This document shows, one piece after another, positions 13,829 through 48,792 of a stretch of 64,000 nucleotides of DNA. The notes under the pieces were generated by a model. It was not told the DNA's origin and did not search any database. It saw only the letters and a program-made list of their open reading frames with translations. The translations under genes and the position numbers were made by a program. Where the stretch lies: assembly GCF_021655115.1 (NCBI RefSeq), contig NZ_PPXY01000008.1, positions 1 to 64,000 on the forward strand, given 5' to 3'. Numbering within the stretch: position 1 is the stretch's first letter; each line of letters starts with the position of its first letter. Source of the stretch: Clostridium sp. Cult3 (lineage in GTDB: Bacteria > Bacillota > Clostridia > Tissierellales > Tepidimicrobiaceae).

Positions 13829-16800
13829 ATGTGGCGAAGGTTCGACTTTAAAAAGAATAGAAATTCTATTGTTATAAAGGATATAGATTTAGATCGAGAT
13901 AGATTAGTAGAGCATGGAGAACAGATAGGTGAAATATATAAAACCAACAGAAAAGTTAATGTAAAGAGGTTTCTTAAAAATAGATTGGATGCTAGCTTCA
14001 AGGAAATTGAAGGAATTTATTTGTATTTTAATAAAAATACGGACAAAGAACTGCCGAAGGGAACAGAATGGCTTCTAGATAATTTTTACATAATCGAGTT
14101 AGTCTACAAACAATTGAAATTTAGTTTAAAAGATGAAAAAAACATGAGGGTAAGGATTATAGAAGGAGAACCATTAAAGGGCTACCCCTTGGTATATATC
14201 CTAGCACTAGAACTAATATCCCACTCAGGAGGCAATATTACAGAAGATAGCATTGAAGGATTTGTCAATGGATTTCAGAAGGAAGAAGTATTAACATTAG
14301 AGGAGATACACTATTTACCTACCTTTATTACCCTAGGTTTGATAGAGTATATTAGAGATATTTCATCAAACCTATTTCATACATATAAGATATGGGAAAA
14401 GGTTGAAGAAATCAATCTTGAAAAAAATCTAAAGGAGATCCTAGATGAAATACATGTCATAGACACTAGAAAAATAGAAAGGTTAGTAAGGAAAATAAGA
14501 GAAGAAGGTGAAAACCTTTCATGGGCATTAGAGGCCATTGATAGAAAATTAGACTATATAGGTTATAGTATCAAGACTATATTAGAAAGGGAATACATAC
14601 GTCAGTCTAAATACAAACTATCTTTAGGCTATGGCATAGGTTCCTTGAGGGATATTTCCTCCCTAAATTGGGAACGTATATTTGATACCTTATCTGTTGT
14701 TGAAAGTATATATAAGGCAGATCCTTTAGGTGTATATGAAAGTATGGATTTATCCTCTAAAGCTTATTATAGATATGAAACTCAAGTATTAGCAGAGCGG
14801 TTTAAAGTACAAGAGATCTTTTTATCCAAAAAGATATTAGAACTTGCAAAGTTAGAATGGGATAAGGGTTGCAGGGATAAAAAAGCCCATATTGGATATT
14901 ACATTCTAGATAGGGGGAGAGAAGAGCTTTTTAGTTTCTTTAAAAAAGAGAATAAGACCTATGGAGTCTATTTAGGGAAATATGCTTATTATTATTTCCC
15001 TATTATTTTACTATGGATTTGTGTAGCCTCCATACTAAGTTTATATGGTTATACTAGAGGAAACATCTACTGGGGTATACTAATTTTTATAATAATATCT
15101 ATACCCTTATTAACTATTTCTACAAATGTAGTTAACTACCTGTTTTCAAAAATGCATAGGCCTAGAATGCTTCCCAAATTGGACTTCAAAGGTGAAATTC
15201 CTGAAAAACATAGCACTTTTGTAGTCATCCCAACTTTACTACCTAGTGTAGATCGTGTTGAAGAACTGTTTAAAAACCTAGAAGTATATTATCTTTCTAA
15301 TAGGGAAGAGAATATTTATTTTGGAATAGTAGGGGATTTTAAGGACGGAGATAGTGAAGTAATAGAATCTGATGAAGAAATACTCAATAAGGGTATTGAA
15401 ATGGCACAGAAATTAAACGATAAGTATGGAAAGGGAAAGGAGATATTTTACTATCTCCATAGGAAAAGGATACATTCTAAAACTCAAGATAAATGGATGG
15501 GTTGGGAAAGAAAAAGGGGAGCTTTGGTAGAGCTTAATGAAATATTGTTGGGAGGGAAGAATACTAGTTTTAATACCATATCAGGAGATATAACCAAAAT
15601 ACAGGGAAAAATTAGTTATGTACTTACTTTAGATGCAGATACCAAACTGCCTATAGATGGGGCAAAGAAATTAATAGGCACCATAGCCCATCCATTGAAT
15701 AGGGCAGTAGTAGACGAAGAAAGAAATAGGGTAATAGAAGGGTATGGAATTATTCAGCCTAGAATGCTGATAGATATAGAAAGTAGCAACAAATCACTAT
15801 TTACTAGAATATTTGCAGGTGTAGGAGGAATAGATCCTTATAGTACTGCTACCTTTGATATATATCAGGATTTATTCGGAGAGGGAATATTTACAGGTAA
15901 AGGCATATATGATTTAAAAGCTTTTCAAAAATGCTTAGCTACTATTCCAGAAAACGCTGTATTAAGCCATGATCTATTAGAAGGTAGCTATATTAGGGCA
16001 GGTTTAGCTACAGATATAGGATTAGTTGATGGATACCCAGAGAAATACAGCTCCTATATTATGAGACAACACAGATGGGTTAGAGGGGATTGGCAATTGA
16101 TTAGATGGCTAAAAAAGCCATATAGTAATCATATAAATTCCCTTTCTAAATGGAAGATATTAGACAATATGAGAAGGAGCCTATTACCTATATTTTTACT
16201 ATTGACTTTTATTCTTGGTTTATCTTTGTTTCCAGGAAATACATCCATATGGTTAAGTCTCTCTATGGTTACATTGTTTCTACCTATTATCAATATGGGT
16301 TTAGATACCATATTATACAAAAGGTTTAAGATGCAAAAGGTGAAGTTAAATGGGGATCTTATCCTAGGGTACAAGACCTATTTATATCAAGGGATTTTAT
16401 CTTTGATGTTTTTGCCCCATGAGGCTAGGATGATGTTGGATGCAATAGGAAGAACTATCTATAGGGTATTTGTATCCAATAAAAACCTGTTGGAATGGAC
16501 AACAGCTTTTGATATGGAAAAAAGACTTGATAACAGTCTTTCCAGCTATATGAAGAGGATGAATGAAAATATTATTGTCTCTTTGCTATTACTTATTCTA
16601 ACCTATTTATTTAATCCAAATAGGCTCTGGATAAGTGGTGTAATTGCTTTATTGTGGTTAGTAGGGCCCTTAGTAGCCTACAATATCAGCAAAGAGGATG
16701 TAGAAACTATGGAAGTTGATGGAGAAAATTTGAAATTACTCTACGAGATTGGAAGGAAGACTTGGGAATATTATCAAACTTTTACCGACGAGAAGAACAA

Positions 16801-28740: not shown

Positions 28741-28790
28741 AAATAACTATCTTTTTTGGTGCCTGGCACCAAAAAAGATAGTTATTTTTT
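28741..28790. terminator. Long palindrome, bidirectional terminator (REP-like core)
   Basis: A perfect 23-bp inverted repeat (28741-28763 and 28765-28787) is centred on GGTGCCTGGCACC and flanked by A and T runs. It overlaps the stop codon of the minus-strand gene and lies 18 bases after the MATE stop. It can terminate both genes. The GGTGCCTGGCACC core resembles dispersed intergenic palindromes in Firmicutes. Confidence 0.8.
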
Positions 28791-29828
28791 TATTTCTTCA
28801 TTGATATTTGTAGCAAATCTATAGGCTTTTTCTTCAATATTGGGCACTTTGTTTATTGCACCTCTATCATTAGCTACTTCCATCAAACAAAAGTAAGGTG
28901 GTAATCTGAAGGTTTTATTTATACTTAGGCTACTGATTAGCTGTTTAGCTAGGGCATCCCCACCAGAGTGGCCAGATACTATAATGGAAAATAGGGTTTT
29001 GTCGTAAAATTTAGTTTTTCTAAACAGGGCTGTTAATCTATTGATAAGGGCAACGGTATTAGCAGAAATCATATCATTGTAGTTAGGGCATATAAATATT
29101 ATGGCGTCTGCTTTTTGTATTGCTGGGTAGACTTGTTCTACTACTATGCCCCCATAGAAACATTTATTTTGCATACCATAATGTTTACAGGTTTTATATG
29201 GACAGCCTTTACAATCCATTATATTTCCATTTCCTATATTGATCTCTTCTATACTTCCCTTTAGATATATTTTGACCATATCCCAAAGGGTCAGTGTATT
29301 AGAGGTTCTTCTATTGCTAGAGTGAAGGGCTAGAATATTAGGATTATCTATTTTAGCTATCCTATTTTTGACAAACCTTTTACCTAATTTTTCACATAGG
29401 TATAAGCATATTTCATCTAGTGGCATATTATATATTTTTTTTAAGGCTATAAAATTGTCTAAATTTCCTGTAGCTTCAACTATTGGTCTACCTTGAAATC
29501 TACATCCCAATAAATTGGCTTGGAACATAATGGATTGAGCTGCTGTTTTGGTAAATAGCTGATAATTGCTATGGATTAAAATTATGGATTCCGACCCTAA
29601 TAGGGAGTTATTTCCTCGGTGGAATAGTTCTATAAATATATCATTAAGATTGTTACTCATACCAGTTACTGGAAGCTCCACTGCAAATATGATTTTACTA
29701 TTTTGTAAATTAGGCAAATCCTTAGCTTTTTCAATTACTTGGAAATTAATATTCTCAAGGGTTACCTCTATCATCTTTTCTAGAAAAGATGAAGGTTTTT
29801 CCGGCAATATTAGATAATATTTTCTCAT
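28782..29828 (-). CDS. NADPH-dependent FMN reductase-like protein with N-terminal extension
   Basis: A 348-aa protein. Residues about 165-348 have a flavodoxin/FMN-reductase fold: NILALHSSNRRTSNTLTL (phosphate loop region), a cysteine cluster CKGCPYKTCKHYGMQNKC, and AIIFICPNYNDMISANTVAL followed by LFSIIVSGHSGGDALAKQL. The first 160 residues (beginning MRKYYLILPEKPSSF) match no family I recognise. The last gene of a minus-strand operon, it overlaps the upstream dehydrogenase gene by four bases (ATGA), so they are translationally coupled. A redox role is likely, acting on the product of the coupled dehydrogenase or on the metabolite handled by the 1612-aa protein. The cysteines suggest an iron-sulfur cluster or redox disulfide. 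Confidence 0.6.
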   Translation of the reverse strand: MRKYYLILPEKPSSFLEKMIEVTLENINFQVIEKAKDLPNLQNSKIIFAVELPVTGMSNNLNDIFIELFHRGNNSLLGSESIILIHSNYQLFTKTAAQSIMFQANLLGCRFQGRPIVEATGNLDNFIALKKIYNMPLDEICLYLCEKLGKRFVKNRIAKIDNPNILALHSSNRRTSNTLTLWDMVKIYLKGSIEEINIGNGNIMDCKGCPYKTCKHYGMQNKCFYGGIVVEQVYPAIQKADAIIFICPNYNDMISANTVALINRLTALFRKTKFYDKTLFSIIVSGHSGGDALAKQLISSLSINKTFRLPPYFCLMEVANDRGAINKVPNIEEKAYRFATNINEEIKK

Positions 29829-31075
29829 ATTATTTTCACTAGCCTTTCATAGGTAGCCTTTATTTTACCAAATAAATTTGGAGGTAGATTTAACTGTTCT
29901 AGCTCTAATTGTCCACCTTTTAATCTACATTTGGAACCCATATAGGCTTCCCCCATATAGGTAGAGCCATAGAACCAATCCTGTTTTATGGTTGCAATTA
30001 TAGATAATGCTCCAGAAGATAGGCTTGGGGCTACATAGGGTTTAAATCCAAAACTTCTTACCACCTTATTGGCCTTTAAGGTTTTCTCCGTTAGGTATTG
30101 GGATAGCTTTTCATCATAATTATCTATGCTATTGGCTACTATCAGACCTTTGCCGTGGGGTCCAAAAACTCTTCCCTGATCTAAATAGTGGAGGGTTTCC
30201 TGGGACTTTTCTGCATAGAAACAAGCTCGGCCGTTCATAACTCCCAATCCATAGCCTATTATTCTATCCGAGGGTATCCCCTTAAAATCCATATTCTCTT
30301 TTTTATCCTTATTGCTCTCTAAAAAAACCACTTTACATAATAGATCCACCGGATCCGATACTACTGCAAATATTCCCTTAAAGGCTTTTTCCCTTGCCAG
30401 TATAGCATATTCCTTTATGATTTCTGAATTGGATTTAAACTGTGCCATTCTCACATCTTCCACTGGACTTCCTACAGGAGGTATGCCCTTGGAGGCACAG
30501 AATATGAACATATTACAATCAAACAATTGGCTTTCGTCTAAGGGCTTTACCGGTGGAAAAGCTTTTTCGTCAAAGGGAATTCTAATTTGGTTCAGTTCGT
30601 AAATCCACCTATTTAAACGATGGGGATTTCTATCGTATAGACCAATTTCCCCTATACAATCTCCACCTAAAAGCCTTAAACCTATGGCTAAGGTACTGCC
30701 TACATCTCCAAGGGCCAGTAGATTGACTTTCCACTTTTTTTCCCTATTAAAATCTAAAACCTCTTCCCAATTTGGATATTTAGTATTAATGGAGATAACC
30801 AGACCTTCATGAATTCTTTCTAATATCCAATAGGGGATTTTATCGGAATAATCCTCATTATCTTGTAGCAATAGGTGAATCCCTTCTTCCTCATTAAATA
30901 AGAGCTTAGGGCTGTTTACTAAGAAACTTCTTCTAGATATTTTAGGATCTAAACTATTCAAAAAATATAGTTTATCCCTATTATCCTTTACATCCTTCTC
31001 ATCTATTTTTTTCAAATCAGTATATTCTTGAAAAGAAAAAAGGTATTTACCCTTATATCTATAAAAATAAATCAT
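29825..31075 (-). CDS. Lactate/malate dehydrogenase-like protein, altered active site
   Basis: A 416-aa protein. The first 120 residues are a lysine- and aspartate-rich extension. From about residue 130 a Rossmann fold begins (VNLLALGDVGSTLAIGLRLL), with LYDRNPHRLNRW as the NAD-ribose loop. Catalytic features of the LDH/MDH family can be traced: an arginine in RMAQFKSNSEIIKEYA, the usual NPVD as DPVDLL, and the proton-relay histidine in GPHGKG near residue 307. The loop LDSAR of true LDHs reads VMNGRACF here. The substrate is therefore probably neither lactate nor malate. It lies 17 bases after the 1612-aa gene and overlaps the flavodoxin-fold gene by four bases. Confidence 0.65.
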   Translation of the reverse strand: MIYFYRYKGKYLFSFQEYTDLKKIDEKDVKDNRDKLYFLNSLDPKISRRSFLVNSPKLLFNEEEGIHLLLQDNEDYSDKIPYWILERIHEGLVISINTKYPNWEEVLDFNREKKWKVNLLALGDVGSTLAIGLRLLGGDCIGEIGLYDRNPHRLNRWIYELNQIRIPFDEKAFPPVKPLDESQLFDCNMFIFCASKGIPPVGSPVEDVRMAQFKSNSEIIKEYAILAREKAFKGIFAVVSDPVDLLCKVVFLESNKDKKENMDFKGIPSDRIIGYGLGVMNGRACFYAEKSQETLHYLDQGRVFGPHGKGLIVANSIDNYDEKLSQYLTEKTLKANKVVRSFGFKPYVAPSLSSGALSIIATIKQDWFYGSTYMGEAYMGSKCRLKGGQLELEQLNLPPNLFGKIKATYERLVKII

Positions 31076-31092
31076 GTACTCACCACTTTCTT

Positions 31093-34000
31093 TTAGCGAT
31101 TGATTATATTTTCAAGCCTTTTCAGATGCTCTAAATCCATTTCAATACAAGTGGAAGGTTTTAAGTTTCTATAGTCCATGGCTATATAGGTATCAGGTTT
31201 TCTTGGCGATACTAAAACTTCACCTAATCCCCACAGGGTTAAATTTTTTTCATTTATATCCTGATAGGCTTTTTCTATTATTTTAAATATATGGTATCCA
31301 TTCATCAGACAAGTTTTGGATAAATTGTATATGGCATTAGGAGAAGTATTCTTAATAAATCTAGGTGAAACATAGGGAAGTATTAAGTTTATGCTAGGTA
31401 TTAGATAGTCGTCTATATCATTTCCTCTAAGGACCATATCCCCACCGATAAATGGATATTGGGCACTTTCGTTAAACCATAGTTTTAAATTTGGCACGAA
31501 ATAAGCACTATCTACTTGTATATTTTTAATCTTTCCTATTTCTTTGCCTCTACCGGTAAGTATACCAACTATTATCTTATTGATTTCTATTTTAGCTTCC
31601 CTAAGTATAGGTTCTATTACACTTAATCTATAGCCTTTGTGGAGTAGATCATCAACTAGTATTACTGGTCTATTAAAGGAACGTAGTACTTTTGCTTGAT
31701 TTTCTAAGCTTAAATAATTGGGAAAGGCTTGAATTGTAAAATCCGTAATACTAGGATTAAATATCTTCTCCGTATGCATGGTTTTAGTTACTGTATTAGG
31801 TAGTATGGTGCCGTTTAGTATGGAGCCAAAGGGCACACACATATTAGAGCCTAGAGTTTTATTTTTTTCTTGTACTATAGGAACTTGGTTAGCATCACAT
31901 ATCTTTTGAATCAATTTACTATATATCATGTCCCTATTAAAGGATAGGAGCAATTGGCCAGGATAAAGATTAGATAAAGCCTTTTTTAGTTCCTTCCTAG
32001 TTTCGTAGATGACTTCTTTTACCTTAATATCTTCATCATATGGAGGCTTCAACAGATTTTCCAAATCCTGGTTCAAAGTCATCGGATTGTTCATATCCAC
32101 TATAAATATAGGGGTATGGTTGTAGGTAAAAGGAGTTTTAACAAATCCTTGTAAGGGTAGATTTTCTTCTAGATACAGTTCACTTCCATAGGTCAATCTG
32201 TTTTTAAAAATCCCATAGTTATAATCGAAAGCTATACAATGGGCTAGGGTTTCATTTAAAACTGCCTCCATTAGATATTCATCCATATCTCTGCTATATA
32301 TGCCTGAAATGATGACCAATTTGCCTTTAGAATGATTCCTCAGATACTGTGTAATATGGGTGTATTCAAATTCATCGAATAGACTTCCGCTTTTTACCCA
32401 ATAAAAAGTTGAAAGTCCCAGTATACTATTATCTTTAGCATCCTTTACTAGGAGTAGATTTGGTTCAAGTTTTTCCCTCAATTCCAAAATAGCCTCTATG
32501 TTTATTCCTCGATTGAACTCTTCATATATATATTGGATTAATTTGTCATCTATTCTATTTACTATTTCAGTTTCTAAGGTTTTAGTTTGTACTAGCCTTT
32601 TATACTGAGGTTCTCTTAAATATAGTCCATATTTATATATATATTGTTGCGTTAATGGATCCATTTGTTTTGAAATATCCCTGTTTAAATCTATAGACTC
32701 CCTGATTTGAGTGGAGCTTATATCCTCGTATTGAGGGGGAAGGGATAGCATCAATACTTCCCCCTTGAGGGCTTTTAGCCTTTTATTAAGTATTAGTTCA
32801 TCTCCTTCTTTAGATTGGAGGCTTTTTCTGTGGAATATTATATGGGGAAATTGTATTAACATTCCATCTTTATCATAGGCAGATGCATTAACCAATACAT
32901 CTGTTCCTATTACCATGTAGACTTTTCTATTTGGAAACAAATCCTTTAATGTCCTTAGGTCTTTATCGTTACTGATGTTTATTGGTATTTCGCTAGGGAA
33001 TAGATATATATCATTTTCGTGAGCAATAGTCATATTGATTATGTTCCTTCTGTATCTATGAGGTTGGGTTCTCTTTGACCAGGAAAACTCATCCACTGCT
33101 AGATATACCTCGTAACCTTGATTCCTTATTTCTATGGCAATCTCTTTATGACTTAAGGAAAAAGGATCGAAGCTACCAGGAAAAAAGGCAATAGAGCTCT
33201 TTTCTTTCCCTTTAATGCTGCCATAGTTGAATTCATAATCGGAAATAAATCTATATATATGGTTTAAAGAAGCAGAGTTGATTAGAAACAGAAACTCATC
33301 ATCTTCTTTTTGGGCCAATAGAGTCAATATCTTTTTTCCCATCAATGAAAATATTTGCTCCTTTTCTATTAGTAACAATTTATTGGAGTTGAATAAATGA
33401 CTACCAATAATTCTGAAGGCCTCTGTTTTTATTTCCTTGTCAAAGGAAGCTATGCCACTTAATAGTATACCTAACAAACGATTTAGTCGTTCTTCTGTAG
33501 TATTTTTATCTTCTTTAAATCGTTTACCATATTGGGGATAGTTTTCAATACATACTCCAGTAGTCTTTAAAAGGAGGAACACTACTTGGGTATTAGATTG
33601 TCTTATTTTTTCTTCAAAGTCATCTATTACTTCATCCAATTCCATAGGTGGTAGGTACAGAATCAATTGGCCTAAATAATTAGGTATATATTTAGTAAAT
33701 TGATAATTTTGCATCTCCAAAGCTCTTAGTAGTTCTACACATATATCATTTCTTTCTCCAAATGTTAAAAAATCAAATATATTTAATAAGGTATGCCCCG
33801 CATAATTGCGTACTTTTTCAATAGCACTTACCTTAAGTAGATTGCAGAAATGCATTCCAGTATGAAGGCCAATTGTATTAGGAGATTTTTTTACTTGATC
33901 ATATAGAATGTCAATATTTACTTTTTTATTCATCCAGTCGGTAGCAGTCTTTAGATTCTTTAGAAAAATCTCCGGTATATTCTCTTCATCTTTTTTATAA

Positions 34001-35931
34001 TTATCTTCTAAAACCTTAAGTATATGCATTTCCATTTTTAGTTTACAAGCTAGCTTGTATTTCAGGTAATTTTCTGCTGGGTAAGGGGAGGCGACTATAT
34101 TTTTCAAAATCCATTTTTCTAGCAGTTTAATAAAATGAGCACTACTCTTAAGCTCTTCAAATATTTCATCTATGATATCCAAGGTAGTAAGTCTGATTTC
34201 TAGATGATTGGAATTTAATTGATTGAATATATATGTATGCAATCTTTTTAGATCCTCTTGGTCTAAATGATATACCGGAATATATTTTATGGTTTGGGAT
34301 AAGTAAAGCTGCCCTGTTGTTGATATATTGGAGTAGTCATCATAGTATTTCATCAAAACCTTTGAGTATTTTTCATAGCTTTCTACATGGGAGTTATAGA
34401 ATAGGGATTTTATAATGGTTTTAAGATTGTATTGCCATTCAATAGGAGATTCTGCTATTTTATGATCTGGATATAAAATATGGTTTAATAGGTCTTCTAA
34501 TATTTTTTCGCTAGATTTTTGTGGATCTTTTCTTTTTATGGATTTGGGTATTTCTTTTCTATATTCTTCATCGTATTGACTGATTAATAATCCAATCAAT
34601 TCAGCGGCTTCTTTTCTAATATCCTCCTCCTTGTGAAACAACAAATCCCCTAAAAAATGTAAGGTGGTTATCTTTTGTTTTTGGGTTAAGTAGGTAGAAT
34701 ACTCGTAGAATATCTGGAGGTACATCCTTAACTTTCTCCAATTGTATTCACTTCTAGCTGTATCCAACAAATTATTAAAGCTGGTGTCGTCTAATAGTTT
34801 TGCCATCAAATCTATATTGTGTTCAATAGAAAAGTATTTAATATGTTCTACTACTTGTTCATGGTCCATTAATGAGAAGTGAGCTTCTTTATTAAGGGGA
34901 TTAATCTGATTTTCAAGGCTAGTATCTACTCCTAAATATATCATATAATCTTCAAAATCCTTTAATTTCCTATATACTTTTTCGTATCTTTGCTCCTTTT
35001 TTTCGTCTACATTGTCAAGTTTATTTAGTATCACATCATAGGCTTCTTCTAAGGAGTATATGTGCATCTTATATTCCTTATCTATCCTCTTGTTTTTTAC
35101 TCGGAAGTCTGCATATATTAATACCAAGGATTCTAAGGGCAAGTTTTCTAACTCTAGATCCCAAGTAGAATGATTGGTGGCAATATGACCTATTTTTTCT
35201 ATGCCTAATTGGTTAAACCACTGTTCCGTATAATAATAATGGAGATAGGGTACCCGGTGGATTTCATCCTGGCTAACCCCATATTTCCCAATATCATGTC
35301 CTAATCCTGCCCCAACTACTATGCTCAAGTCTATAGGTAAATCCATTTTGTTTAATTGTCGACCAATGTATAGGCTAAGATAATTTACACCTACTACATG
35401 TTCTAAAGTATTGTGGCCCGTTAGGTATAAATCCATCTTCATCAGTTCATATATCCATTTATTTAAAAATCCATCTTTAAACTTCAAGTATTCAGGAAGT
35501 AATTTAGCCTTTTGTTCTTCTTCAGCAGTTAATATGCTAATAGGGTATTTATTTAAGAAGCTATTTTCATCATAGGTTATTTCCCCTTTGGAAAAAATCC
35601 TCAGGACATTCAAATAAAATAGGACTAAAGGATGTAGTTCTTCATTGAAATACCTAGTAACCCTTTCAGGATAAGATAGACTAAGAGTCCAATCGTATAT
35701 ATATTGAAGCCAATCTGTGCTACTTACATTCCAATATTTAGTATAGAGTGGATGAAGCAAATCCATTAAAACTAGGGCATCATATTCATTATTAAAAACT
35801 ATATCCTTTAGAGAGGCCTTGAAAGTTTCACCTTTGATCCTATGGGCCAAATCTTCTTTAAACTTCCACATATACTCCTTTTTTAATTCACCCAAAATAC
35901 TCCCATATATTTTGTTATAAGCCTTAATCAT
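31093..35931 (-). CDS. Giant HD / NadD-like nucleotidyltransferase / phosphoribosyltransferase fusion
   Basis: A 1612-aa cytoplasmic protein with no signal peptide. Residues about 170-290 form an HD domain (EHVVGVNYLSL, GLGHDIGKYGVSQ, IATNHSTWD). Residues about 370-900 are helical and look like HEAT/ARM repeats. Residues about 915-1090 are a cytidylyltransferase-type fold (FFPGSFDPFSLSHKEIA, MVIGTDVLVNAS, ISSTQIRESI) resembling NadD, but the HxGH motif is reduced to SLSH. Residues about 1110-1300 are unassigned, possibly GNAT-like. Residues about 1330-1530 contain a phosphoribosyltransferase with the PRPP motif VILVDDLLHKGYR near residue 1427. ATG 35931 overlaps the sdaAA stop (ATGA), behind GAGGAGG. 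A role in an unusual nucleotide or cofactor is inferred, not shown. Confidence 0.7.
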   Translation of the reverse strand: MIKAYNKIYGSILGELKKEYMWKFKEDLAHRIKGETFKASLKDIVFNNEYDALVLMDLLHPLYTKYWNVSSTDWLQYIYDWTLSLSYPERVTRYFNEELHPLVLFYLNVLRIFSKGEITYDENSFLNKYPISILTAEEEQKAKLLPEYLKFKDGFLNKWIYELMKMDLYLTGHNTLEHVVGVNYLSLYIGRQLNKMDLPIDLSIVVGAGLGHDIGKYGVSQDEIHRVPYLHYYYTEQWFNQLGIEKIGHIATNHSTWDLELENLPLESLVLIYADFRVKNKRIDKEYKMHIYSLEEAYDVILNKLDNVDEKKEQRYEKVYRKLKDFEDYMIYLGVDTSLENQINPLNKEAHFSLMDHEQVVEHIKYFSIEHNIDLMAKLLDDTSFNNLLDTARSEYNWRKLRMYLQIFYEYSTYLTQKQKITTLHFLGDLLFHKEEDIRKEAAELIGLLISQYDEEYRKEIPKSIKRKDPQKSSEKILEDLLNHILYPDHKIAESPIEWQYNLKTIIKSLFYNSHVESYEKYSKVLMKYYDDYSNISTTGQLYLSQTIKYIPVYHLDQEDLKRLHTYIFNQLNSNHLEIRLTTLDIIDEIFEELKSSAHFIKLLEKWILKNIVASPYPAENYLKYKLACKLKMEMHILKVLEDNYKKDEENIPEIFLKNLKTATDWMNKKVNIDILYDQVKKSPNTIGLHTGMHFCNLLKVSAIEKVRNYAGHTLLNIFDFLTFGERNDICVELLRALEMQNYQFTKYIPNYLGQLILYLPPMELDEVIDDFEEKIRQSNTQVVFLLLKTTGVCIENYPQYGKRFKEDKNTTEERLNRLLGILLSGIASFDKEIKTEAFRIIGSHLFNSNKLLLIEKEQIFSLMGKKILTLLAQKEDDEFLFLINSASLNHIYRFISDYEFNYGSIKGKEKSSIAFFPGSFDPFSLSHKEIAIEIRNQGYEVYLAVDEFSWSKRTQPHRYRRNIINMTIAHENDIYLFPSEIPINISNDKDLRTLKDLFPNRKVYMVIGTDVLVNASAYDKDGMLIQFPHIIFHRKSLQSKEGDELILNKRLKALKGEVLMLSLPPQYEDISSTQIRESIDLNRDISKQMDPLTQQYIYKYGLYLREPQYKRLVQTKTLETEIVNRIDDKLIQYIYEEFNRGINIEAILELREKLEPNLLLVKDAKDNSILGLSTFYWVKSGSLFDEFEYTHITQYLRNHSKGKLVIISGIYSRDMDEYLMEAVLNETLAHCIAFDYNYGIFKNRLTYGSELYLEENLPLQGFVKTPFTYNHTPIFIVDMNNPMTLNQDLENLLKPPYDEDIKVKEVIYETRKELKKALSNLYPGQLLLSFNRDMIYSKLIQKICDANQVPIVQEKNKTLGSNMCVPFGSILNGTILPNTVTKTMHTEKIFNPSITDFTIQAFPNYLSLENQAKVLRSFNRPVILVDDLLHKGYRLSVIEPILREAKIEINKIIVGILTGRGKEIGKIKNIQVDSAYFVPNLKLWFNESAQYPFIGGDMVLRGNDIDDYLIPSINLILPYVSPRFIKNTSPNAIYNLSKTCLMNGYHIFKIIEKAYQDINEKNLTLWGLGEVLVSPRKPDTYIAMDYRNLKPSTCIEMDLEHLKRLENIINR

Positions 35932-36794
35932 AAAATCCTCCTCTTTAGATTCTCCCCTGTTGGAGTTGCTGCTACACCACCTAAGGCGGTTTCTCGCAAG
36001 GATTCAGGCATGGCTTTGCCAACTTTATACATAGCATCTACCACTTCATCAAAAGGAACCATCGATTTAACCCCTGCTAAAGCTAAATCAGCTGAAACTA
36101 GGGCATTGACAACCCCTGAAGCATTGCGTAATGCACAAGGAAACTCAACTAATCCTGCTATAGGATCGCAAACTAGGCCCATAATGTTTATTAAGGCAAA
36201 GGATGCTGCATTAAAACAGGCTTCTACACTACCGCCTACCATTTCTACTATGGAAGCAGCTGCCATACTACTTGCAACACCACATTCAGCTTGACAACCT
36301 CCCTCAGCTCCTGATATAGTAGCGTTTTTAGCTACGATTTCACCTATACCTGCGGCAGTGAACAATCCGTGAATCATATCTTCATGGGATAGTTGAAATC
36401 TATCCTTTACGGTAAGGATAGCACTAGGCAATATTCCTGATGCACCAGCAGTAGGAGCTGCTACAATTTTACCCATTGAAGCATTAACTTCTGAAGTAGA
36501 CAAGGCTTTTGCCATAGCAGAGTTAATTAATTGGCCACTGATGGTATTACCTCTATTTTTATAGTCCTCCATCTTTTTAGCATCGCCACCGCTAAGCCTA
36601 CTAACTGAAACAATCTCTTTATCTAAAGCTGTATTAGCTGAATTTATCATAGTATCTAGTACTAAATTCATACTATCCATGAGCTCTTCATAGGATACGT
36701 TGCTCTCTTCTATTTCTTTTTCTATAACGATTTCCCATATCTTCTTGTTTTGTGTTTTACATAAGTTTATAAGCTCCGAACCTTTATTAAACAT
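35928..36794 (-). CDS. sdaAA: L-serine dehydratase, iron-sulfur type, alpha subunit
   Basis: A 288-aa subunit of the oxygen-sensitive 4Fe-4S serine dehydratase. Marks are SRLSGGDAKKMEDYKNRG (about residues 63-80), VAAPTAGASGILPSAIL, the cysteines in EGGCQAECGVASSMAA, and LVCDPIAGLVEFPCALRNAS. The enzyme deaminates L-serine to pyruvate and ammonia. It works with the beta subunit encoded four bases upstream. Its stop overlaps the start of the 1612-aa fusion gene. It is a main entry of amino-acid carbon in clostridial fermentation. Confidence 0.95.
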   Translation of the reverse strand: MFNKGSELINLCKTQNKKIWEIVIEKEIEESNVSYEELMDSMNLVLDTMINSANTALDKEIVSVSRLSGGDAKKMEDYKNRGNTISGQLINSAMAKALSTSEVNASMGKIVAAPTAGASGILPSAILTVKDRFQLSHEDMIHGLFTAAGIGEIVAKNATISGAEGGCQAECGVASSMAAASIVEMVGGSVEACFNAASFALINIMGLVCDPIAGLVEFPCALRNASGVVNALVSADLALAGVKSMVPFDEVVDAMYKVGKAMPESLRETALGGVAATPTGENLKRRIL

Positions 36795-36798
36795 TTAC

Positions 36799-37467
36799 TT
36801 ACCTCCCTATGGGATTAATACCCGTAATATATATGATTTCATCTAAATTTGATATATTTTCAATTATTTTATCCTCTATAGGATTATCAATTTCCATTAC
36901 CATAGTTGCAATTTTTCCTTCTCTGGATACCTTCATAGTAGCTATATTTTTATTTTCTTTAGCCAGTATGGAACTGATTCTACTAATGGAACCTTTTTGA
37001 TCCATGTATCTAATTAGGATTGTTGGGTAGTTGCCTGAGAATGTGACCTTGTTCCCATTTATATTAGTAATCAATATATTTCCTCCACCGATGGATGAAC
37101 CAATTATATAGTAATCATCTTTATCTTTATAGGAAAAAACTATTTTAACTGTATTTGGATGTTCATATCCTAAATCTTTTTCAACGAATTCAATTTCTAT
37201 CCCTTTTTCTTTAGCAATATTTAAAGATTCTCTAATTCTTTCATCGGAAGGTTCCATTCCCAAAATTCCTGCTACTAAAGCCCTGTCTGTACCATGGCCC
37301 TTATAGGTTTTAGCAAAGGAGCCGTGAAGATAGAAGGTAACTTTAATAAAGGAATCATCTGCAATCTCCTTTGCCATCTTACCTAATCTTGCAGCTCCAG
37401 CAGTATGGGAACTGGAAGGTCCAATCATAACAGGGCCTAGAATGTCAAAAACACTATAATCTTTCAT
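36799..37467 (-). CDS. sdaAB: L-serine dehydratase, iron-sulfur type, beta subunit
   Basis: A 222-aa beta subunit. The N-terminal substrate and cluster region reads VFDILGPVMIGPSSSHTAGA. The C-terminal 75 residues form an ACT domain (TILIRYMDQKGSISRISSIL, then NIATMKVSREGKIATMVMEI), which in this family can regulate activity by serine. The start ATG 37467 follows GAGGAGGG. The frame continues to 37482, but that start overlaps the ribosome site. First gene of the five-gene minus-strand operon. Confidence 0.95.
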   Translation of the reverse strand: MKDYSVFDILGPVMIGPSSSHTAGAARLGKMAKEIADDSFIKVTFYLHGSFAKTYKGHGTDRALVAGILGMEPSDERIRESLNIAKEKGIEIEFVEKDLGYEHPNTVKIVFSYKDKDDYYIIGSSIGGGNILITNINGNKVTFSGNYPTILIRYMDQKGSISRISSILAKENKNIATMKVSREGKIATMVMEIDNPIEDKIIENISNLDEIIYITGINPIGR

Positions 37468-37524
37468 TTCATCCCTCCTCATCTTTATTAGTGTATTAAT
37501 TTTAGCATTTAATCAAAAATTAAG

Positions 37525-37552
37525 CAATAAAAATAGGAGGGCTAGCCTCCTA
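37525..37552 (-). terminator. Terminator after the cis-prenyltransferase gene
   Basis: On the minus strand TAGGAGG and CCTCCTA (37533-37551) form a 7-bp stem over a short GC-rich loop and are followed by TTTTTATT. It overlaps the end of the gene and separates it from sdaAB. Confidence 0.7.
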
Positions 37553-38186
37553 AGGTAATATCCTGCTGGTCATACCATTTTAGAGCATCATAAAAATGTT
37601 CGGGTCGGAAATCTGGCCAATAATCATCGATAATATAGAAATCAGAATAAACTGATTGTAAAGGTGGGAATCCACTGAGTCTTCTCCTACCTCCCCAGCG
37701 AATAATAAGATCTACTCTTGAGATATCCCTGGATTTAATTAATTCAGTTATACTAGGGCTTTCTTTAGGAGAAGAAAAGTAATCCTTTAAATCCCATTGC
37801 CAACCGTAATTGACAAGGAAGTTTACCTTCATTCCTCCCGAGCCAAATACTTGCCTTCTTAGAGAGAAGGGTATTAAGCTCTTCGGGAACATATCCGATT
37901 CAGTATTTCCAACTACCAGCAGTTCTGCATTTTCTTTCGATAGCAGCTTGACTGCATCAACACAGGCTTTGGTAAAGGCAAGTCTTTGTACTCTAGGTCG
38001 TTTTGTGTTATCCACGGTAAATCCATAATAGGTAATCTCCTTTATTCCTTCTTTTTCACATAATTTAAATACTTCCAACCCAGGTTCTAAGCCTTCTTTA
38101 TAGCCTTTTTCTTTGCTTAATCCATTTTCCATTGCCCATCTTCTGTTACCATCTGGTATAATACCTATATGATTAGGTATTCTCAT
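37542..38186 (-). CDS. Variant cis-prenyltransferase (UppS family)
   Basis: A 214-aa member of the undecaprenyl diphosphate synthase family, shorter than the usual 230-250. The catalytic aspartate is in IIPDGNRRWAMENGL. The block YGFTVDNTKRP replaces the usual YAFSSENWNRP. The C-terminal RWGGRRRLSGFPPLQSVYSDF replaces RTGGEQRLSNFLLWQSAYSE, so the magnesium-binding glutamate is an arginine. The HKAG histidine is a tyrosine (YKEG). Cis-prenyltransferases chain isopentenyl diphosphate units onto an allylic primer. This one probably makes a different chain length or has lost normal catalysis, and is unlikely to be the main UppS. It is a single-gene unit with its own terminator. Confidence 0.75.
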   Translation of the reverse strand: MRIPNHIGIIPDGNRRWAMENGLSKEKGYKEGLEPGLEVFKLCEKEGIKEITYYGFTVDNTKRPRVQRLAFTKACVDAVKLLSKENAELLVVGNTESDMFPKSLIPFSLRRQVFGSGGMKVNFLVNYGWQWDLKDYFSSPKESPSITELIKSRDISRVDLIIRWGGRRRLSGFPPLQSVYSDFYIIDDYWPDFRPEHFYDALKWYDQQDITLGG

Positions 38187-48580: not shown

Positions 48581-48757
48581 AGACCATATTTCTGCGGTGT
48601 ACGTTAACCCAAATAATTCAACCGACATAGAGTACACGGGAGTTCGGGTTCAGCAGTGTAGAGTAGGCCTTAAATGGAAGCTCAAAGCTGTTGGCAGGGC
48701 ACCCACCTTGTGAGAGGCGGGTGTGAATTAATTGGGAGGACGGCACTGCGGTAATAG
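48581..48757 (+). ncRNA. ssrS: 6S RNA
   Basis: A non-coding transcript of about 177 nt, before a terminator. Its ends pair as the 6S closing stem: CTGCGGTGT (48592-48600) with GCACTGCGG (48743-48751), all nine positions paired when G-U is allowed. The body is GC-richer than the surroundings, with helices such as CACCC (48708-48712) with GGGTG. The order of blocks (CAGTGTAGAGTAGGCC, GGCAGGGC, GGACGGCACTGC) matches clostridial 6S RNAs as I remember them. 6S RNA mimics an open promoter and holds sigma-A RNA polymerase. A consensus promoter and a terminator frame it. Not tmRNA (no tag frame) and not RNase P. Confidence 0.8.
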
Positions 48758-48792
48758 AAAACCCTTAGGTTTGAACCTAAGGGTTTTTTGCT
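48758..48792 (+). terminator. Terminator of 6S RNA
   Basis: A 13-bp stem, AAACCCTTAGGTT (48759-48771) and AACCTAAGGGTTT (48774-48786), is followed by a T run. Confidence 0.92.

Follow-up and report, generated by a model that had tools for sequence, protein, structure and literature searches.

The closest described relatives of the locus analysed here combine a nucleotidyltransferase with an HD hydrolase. In Firmicutes and mycoplasmas, NadD-YqeK fusions or operons bring together a NadD-type nucleotidyltransferase and an HD hydrolase, and there is a published case of a single polypeptide whose NadD and HD domains synthesise and degrade dinucleotides of the NaAD type (PMC9426524). The bifunctional Rel/SpoT (p)ppGpp enzymes likewise hold a synthetase and an HD hydrolase in one large chain, together with possible sensor domains. 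Among oxidoreductases, the nearest systems are the L-lactate and malate dehydrogenases, with an NAD-binding fold, substrate arginines and a catalytic histidine, and the NADPH-dependent FMN reductases and iron-sulfur flavoproteins, with an FMN-binding flavodoxin fold and a four-cysteine cluster.

The window, that is, the whole stretch of 64,000 nucleotides analysed, contains five tightly spaced minus-strand genes, all of which were present as the preliminary description had stated. They run from sdaAB (36799-37482) through sdaAA (35928-36794), a giant multidomain protein of 1612 aa (31093-35931; ORF list, domain searches, homologues and model) and an LDH/MDH-like dehydrogenase of 416 aa (29825-31075) to a flavoprotein of 348 aa with an FMN_red/flavodoxin fold (28782-29828). 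The successive spacings are a gap of 4 bp, an overlap of 4 bp, a gap of 17 bp and an overlap of 4 bp. The gene sdaAB itself stood as described; its earlier end at 37467 is an alternative start codon, and the longer ORF extends to 37482. Pfam and NCBIfam searches backed the identities of sdaAA and sdaAB as L-serine dehydratase alpha (TIGR00718, 3e-116) and beta (TIGR00719, 3.1e-80). Further upstream, on the same strand, lies a short second cis-prenyltransferase (UppS-like, 214 aa, 37542-38186) that scored below the uppS cut-off.

The real unit at this locus is a cassette of three genes, encoding the giant, the LDH-like protein and the flavoprotein. Among 199 genomes of the order, the giant was found in 87, the LDH-like protein in 84, the flavoprotein in 83 and all three in 81 (Fisher's test, p < 1e-47). 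The neighbourhood and genome survey therefore settled a point that had been left to such a check: the three genes do travel together, with the full set in 81 of the 88 genomes holding any of them. The exceptions number seven: the closed genome G083, which has a giant and neither partner, and six assemblies in several contigs. Outside the order, in other orders and classes of the phylum, the unit is sporadic, and all eight genomes checked there contained the full set. Carriers amounted to 21 of 245 genomes in the class and 8 of 398 in the phylum, totals in which the order's own members are counted, and the cassette occurred in about 44% of the order's sampled genomes and about 2% of the phylum. 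The unit is common to many families of anaerobic Firmicutes; carriers include Mogibacterium-type rumen MAGs and Acetoanaerobium noterae.

Gene order was surveyed at 66 loci, 42 at first and then 24 from the class and phylum. The three genes were adjacent in the same order and orientation at all of the first 42 loci and at most of the further 24, the exceptions being L135, L136, L144, L150 and L152. At L135 and L136, an ammonium transporter and a three-piece glutamate synthase are inserted between the giant and LDH-like genes. L144 and L150 are solo second copies of the giant, with the LDH-like and flavoprotein genes elsewhere in those genomes, and at L152 the giant stands alone while the LDH-flavoprotein pair occupies another contig of the same genome. 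A profile search placed the flavoprotein gene of L143 directly after the LDH-like gene, and the two genes overlap by 4 bp in 38 of 59 loci. Co-inheritance in a fixed order is thus nearly without exception. Between the three proteins, correlations of homologue distances are 0.86-0.92, part of which follows from common ancestry alone. No paper on the three-gene unit was found in the literature searched, nor any described pathway with such a gene set, in agreement with the preliminary description.

That description had also coupled the cluster to serine use and had asked whether sdaA always accompanies it. It does not: sdaAA lies directly upstream in only 15 of 66 loci, from four families (f1, f5, f13 and f15) that belong to a single order, and at the remaining loci the cassette has different neighbours or none. 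A general link to serine dehydratase was therefore rejected, and sdaAA and sdaAB are regarded as lineage-specific operon partners in a local arrangement. Other neighbours recur as well. In nine families, the gene for the short cis-prenyltransferase precedes that of the giant on the same strand, with a canonical UppS elsewhere in the genome. In eight families, a convergent gene for a RelQ-type (p)ppGpp synthetase, encoded on the other strand, is found close to the cassette's 3' end (L076, L077, L079, L080, L083, L086, L087, L095 and L097), within 600 bp in six of nine cases. Glutamate dehydrogenase is found near the cassette in L143 and its relatives.

The giant is a genuine fusion. Homologues of full length, about 1570-1650 aa, were met throughout, which rules out misjoined ORFs. 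Profile searches, motifs and AlphaFold2 models together point to an HD domain, a NadD-like fold and a phosphoribosyltransferase (PRTase)-like domain with a PRPP-type motif on one chain. These three domains had been named before; a HEAT/ARM solenoid and a GNAT-like fold had been overlooked. The order along the chain is HD, solenoid, NadD-like, GNAT-like and PRTase-like, and no described counterpart of this order, spanning about 1600 residues, was found. The model of residues 1-900 (pLDDT 89.9) comprises the HD domain and the long solenoid; that of residues 900-1612 (pLDDT 89.7) comprises the NadD fold, the GNAT-like fold and a further alpha/beta domain with the PRPP-type motif. The solenoid (residues about 346-905, some 560 residues; 33217-34896) is all-helical and drew Foldseek matches to importin-alpha, PP2A-A and engineered repeat proteins. 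By sequence, no solved relative was found for the whole giant or for the flavoprotein; at profile level, NadD/CoaD structures are related to the NadD-like domain and LDH/MDH structures to the LDH-like protein.

The HD domain and its conserved surround (residues about 171-345; 34897-35421) matched Pfam HD (3.8e-6, 27.6 bits against a cut-off of 22 bits) and carry the H...HD...H...H...D residue set of the HD phosphohydrolase superfamily. Conserved motifs in and around the domain are LEHV, GHDIGK, YLHYYYT, NHSTWDLELE and LIYADFR. Comparison with YqeK (COG1713) by hhalign gave a probability of 20% over 57 columns, with only four YqeK sequences compared.

For the NadD-like nucleotidyltransferase (residues about 912-1110; 32602-33198), several lines of evidence converge on the fold: a CTP_transf_like/NadD-like Pfam match (7.7e-9), profile-profile alignment with NadD over the full length (hhalign, 99.4%) and Foldseek, where the top matches among those listed were all NadD. 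TIGR00482 (NadD) matched at 3.4e-11 with 43.5 bits, below its curated cut-off of 112.45 bits. The domain's motifs are PG[ST]FDPFSLSH, DEFSWSK and ISSTxIR, so that the NadD fold and the ISSTxIR motif are both present. FDPFSLSH stands where NadD has FDPxHxGH, the first histidine of HxGH being replaced by serine or threonine, and the NadD signature SYT was not found in the domain. In the tree, the domain forms a clade separate from canonical NadD (support 100/100), and the source genome encodes a canonical NadD apart from the giant.

Compared with NadD-YqeK, then, the giant has an N-terminal HD domain without a convincing YqeK match, set off by the solenoid, and adds GNAT-like and PRTase-like parts. 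Compared with Rel/SpoT, its nucleotidyltransferase has the NadD/CoaD fold rather than that of a Rel synthetase, and no TGS or ACT domain was detected in it.

The GNAT-like fold (32044-32598) was recognised from Foldseek acetyltransferase matches (9evq and 4ua3, E about 3e-5 to 5e-5) and is apparently degenerate. It had no Pfam GNAT match, and the acetyl-CoA loop R/QxxGxG/A was not seen between the matching strand and helix when the sequence was read by eye with strand positions from the AlphaFold2 model. The type I PRTase-like domain (31312-32043) carries the PRPP-type motif VILVDDLLHKGYR, near-invariant across giants and with its two acids present. Pribosyltran (PF00156, gathering cut-off 26.3 bits) gave no match in the window giant itself; it matched 14 of 40 homologues (best E 2.7e-4), with the highest homologue score, 20.7 bits, below the cut-off. 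The profile match between the domain and the window's own xpt was weak. No PRTase appeared among the 50 Foldseek matches listed for residues 900-1612, and the assignment therefore rests on homologue matches, motif and strand-helix order. Five of the 71 giants have a changed acid pair, and all five retain both partners; the PRTase-like part may thus be non-catalytic.

The LDH-like protein matched Ldh_1_N (1.9e-7) and scored 28.4 bits against TIGR01771 (L-lactate dehydrogenase), far from the cut-off of 303.55 bits. Equivalent positions were read from alignments with LDH/MDH relatives. R209, R283 and H307, corresponding to the substrate arginines and catalytic histidine of L-lactate and malate dehydrogenases, are invariant in all 43 homologues. 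Unlike in those enzymes, the Asp168 position is Met280 and the Asn140 position Asp241, each in 43 of 43, and with methionine at Asp168 the Asp168-His195 pair of L-lactate dehydrogenase is absent. The first glycine of the GxGxxG loop is alanine in most members and an aspartate inside the loop is invariant (GDVG); most members, including that of the window, also have a 112-aa N-terminal extension.

The flavoprotein matched FMN_red (PF03358) at 5.9e-19, its 68.6 bits exceeding the gathering cut-off of 24, and contains an SxRxTSNT FMN loop. Four invariant cysteines, spaced CxxCx4Cx8C, would probably hold an Fe-S cluster. Iron-sulfur flavoproteins bind a [4Fe-4S] cluster through a compact cysteine motif with a different spacing, and the protein further departs from these and from the FMN reductases in an extra N-terminal domain of 160 aa.

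A pattern check on 71 aligned giants flagged eleven. L086 and L145 have truncated giant ORFs (976 and 882 aa) from which the HD part is absent. The giant ORF of L066 (1495 aa) is short of about 120 residues inside the NadD-like domain, and the flavoprotein ORF there has only 207 aa, reflecting either decay or an assembly fault. In L092, L147, L149, L151 and L154, the change is limited to the PRPP acid pair, and both partners are kept. The remaining three are solo copies: the giant of G083 (L160), a genome without LDH-like or flavoprotein genes, has neither the HD nor the NadD motifs, and those of L144 and L150 have lost ISSTxIR and kept HD, L150 also being without the PGxFDP motif. The HD and NadD-like motifs are present in every giant with two intact partners, as far as the motif is readable.

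We tentatively prefer to read the giant as an enzyme that both makes and breaks an adenylylated, NAD-like nucleotide and serves a dedicated oxidoreductase pair, a reading based on folds, motifs and co-inheritance and held at somewhat less than an even chance. It is preferred because it uses all conserved parts and has a published one-chain precedent in NadD plus HD. In this form, stripped of its link to serine, the earlier proposal of a cluster for making, repairing or recycling an unusual nucleotide or cofactor is still the best available. The NadD-like domain would adenylylate a mononucleotide related to, and not identical with, NaMN, giving an NAD-like dinucleotide; the PRTase-like domain could either supply this mononucleotide, by joining a base to PRPP, or act as a PRPP sensor. 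The HD domain would remove the dinucleotide or wrong products, by a logic like that of NadD-YqeK or Rel enzymes. The LDH-like protein, acting through a rewired 2-oxo-acid site, and the flavoprotein, passing electrons via FMN and the four-cysteine cluster, would use or regenerate the giant's product, and serine dehydratase would be a local add-on. The more specific version, in which the PRTase-like and NadD-like domains build a novel NAD-like dinucleotide, HD removes it and the two partners are its dedicated oxidoreductases, is on present evidence unlikely. Motif loss in the solo giants G083, L144 and L150 supports the make-and-break reading, by an argument drawn from three copies only. Counted against it are the missing HxGH histidine and SYT, the changed PRPP acid pair of five giants, the weak HD-YqeK match and the absence of NAD and PRPP riboswitches from the scanned loci. 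If it is right, the cassette points to a nucleotide or redox-cofactor pathway that has gone unrecognised, and offers a direct route to its metabolite.

The same domains could serve NAD damage control or proofreading, the giant destroying (HD) and rebuilding (NadD-like) faulty NAD(P) or NaAD analogues while its two partners deal with damaged nicotinamide rings or dead-end 2-hydroxy acids. Proofreading of this kind is an activity of the NadD-YqeK fusion of JCVI-Syn3A (PMC9426524), and both the joint conservation of the HD and NadD-like motifs and the retained LDH-type Arg/His set would fit. However, a repair system should be broadly distributed, which the cassette's frequencies in order and phylum do not bear out, and a canonical nadD is already at hand; we consider this explanation rather unlikely. 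Much the same standing is given to bifunctional signalling of the Rel kind, whereby the giant would make and hydrolyse a dinucleotide or Ap4A-type signal, the GNAT-like and PRTase-like parts would be sensors and the two partner proteins redox sensors or effectors. HD and nucleotidyltransferase share a chain as in Rel enzymes, the putative sensor parts look partly degenerate and a RelQ-type gene is nearby in eight families. Yet that gene is encoded on the other strand and was seen within the order only, and the invariant LDH-type catalytic residues exceed the needs of a pure sensor.

Neighbouring genes suggest other roles. sdaA in the window and its relatives, glutamate synthase and ammonium transporter at L135 and L136, and glutamate dehydrogenase around L143 would suit a 2-oxo-acid dehydrogenase system tied to serine, glutamate and ammonia enzymes; since each such neighbour is limited to a few families and most loci have none beside the cassette, an amino-acid nitrogen unit appears improbable. 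An accessory system for sporulation is very improbable: SpoIVA is also present in 61 of 84 LDH-like-positive genomes, but the cassette occurs without SpoIVA in 23 genomes and SpoIVA without the cassette in 29, a distribution that weakens this reading.

Phage, plasmid or defence origin was rejected, with no phage match and no PADLOC or PHROGs match. The lone match in the plasmid collection, NZ_CP154629.1 of Acetoanaerobium noterae (L159, 2.63 Mb), carries the cassette and appears to be a chromosome deposited under the label of a plasmid. Riboswitch control of the cassette was likewise set aside: across the window and 14 related loci, no Rfam match was linked to the cassette. Elsewhere in the window, a 6S RNA lies at 48586-48758 (Rfam RF00013, 87.5 bits), and L084 has a cobalamin riboswitch at 14875-15057, downstream of the cassette.
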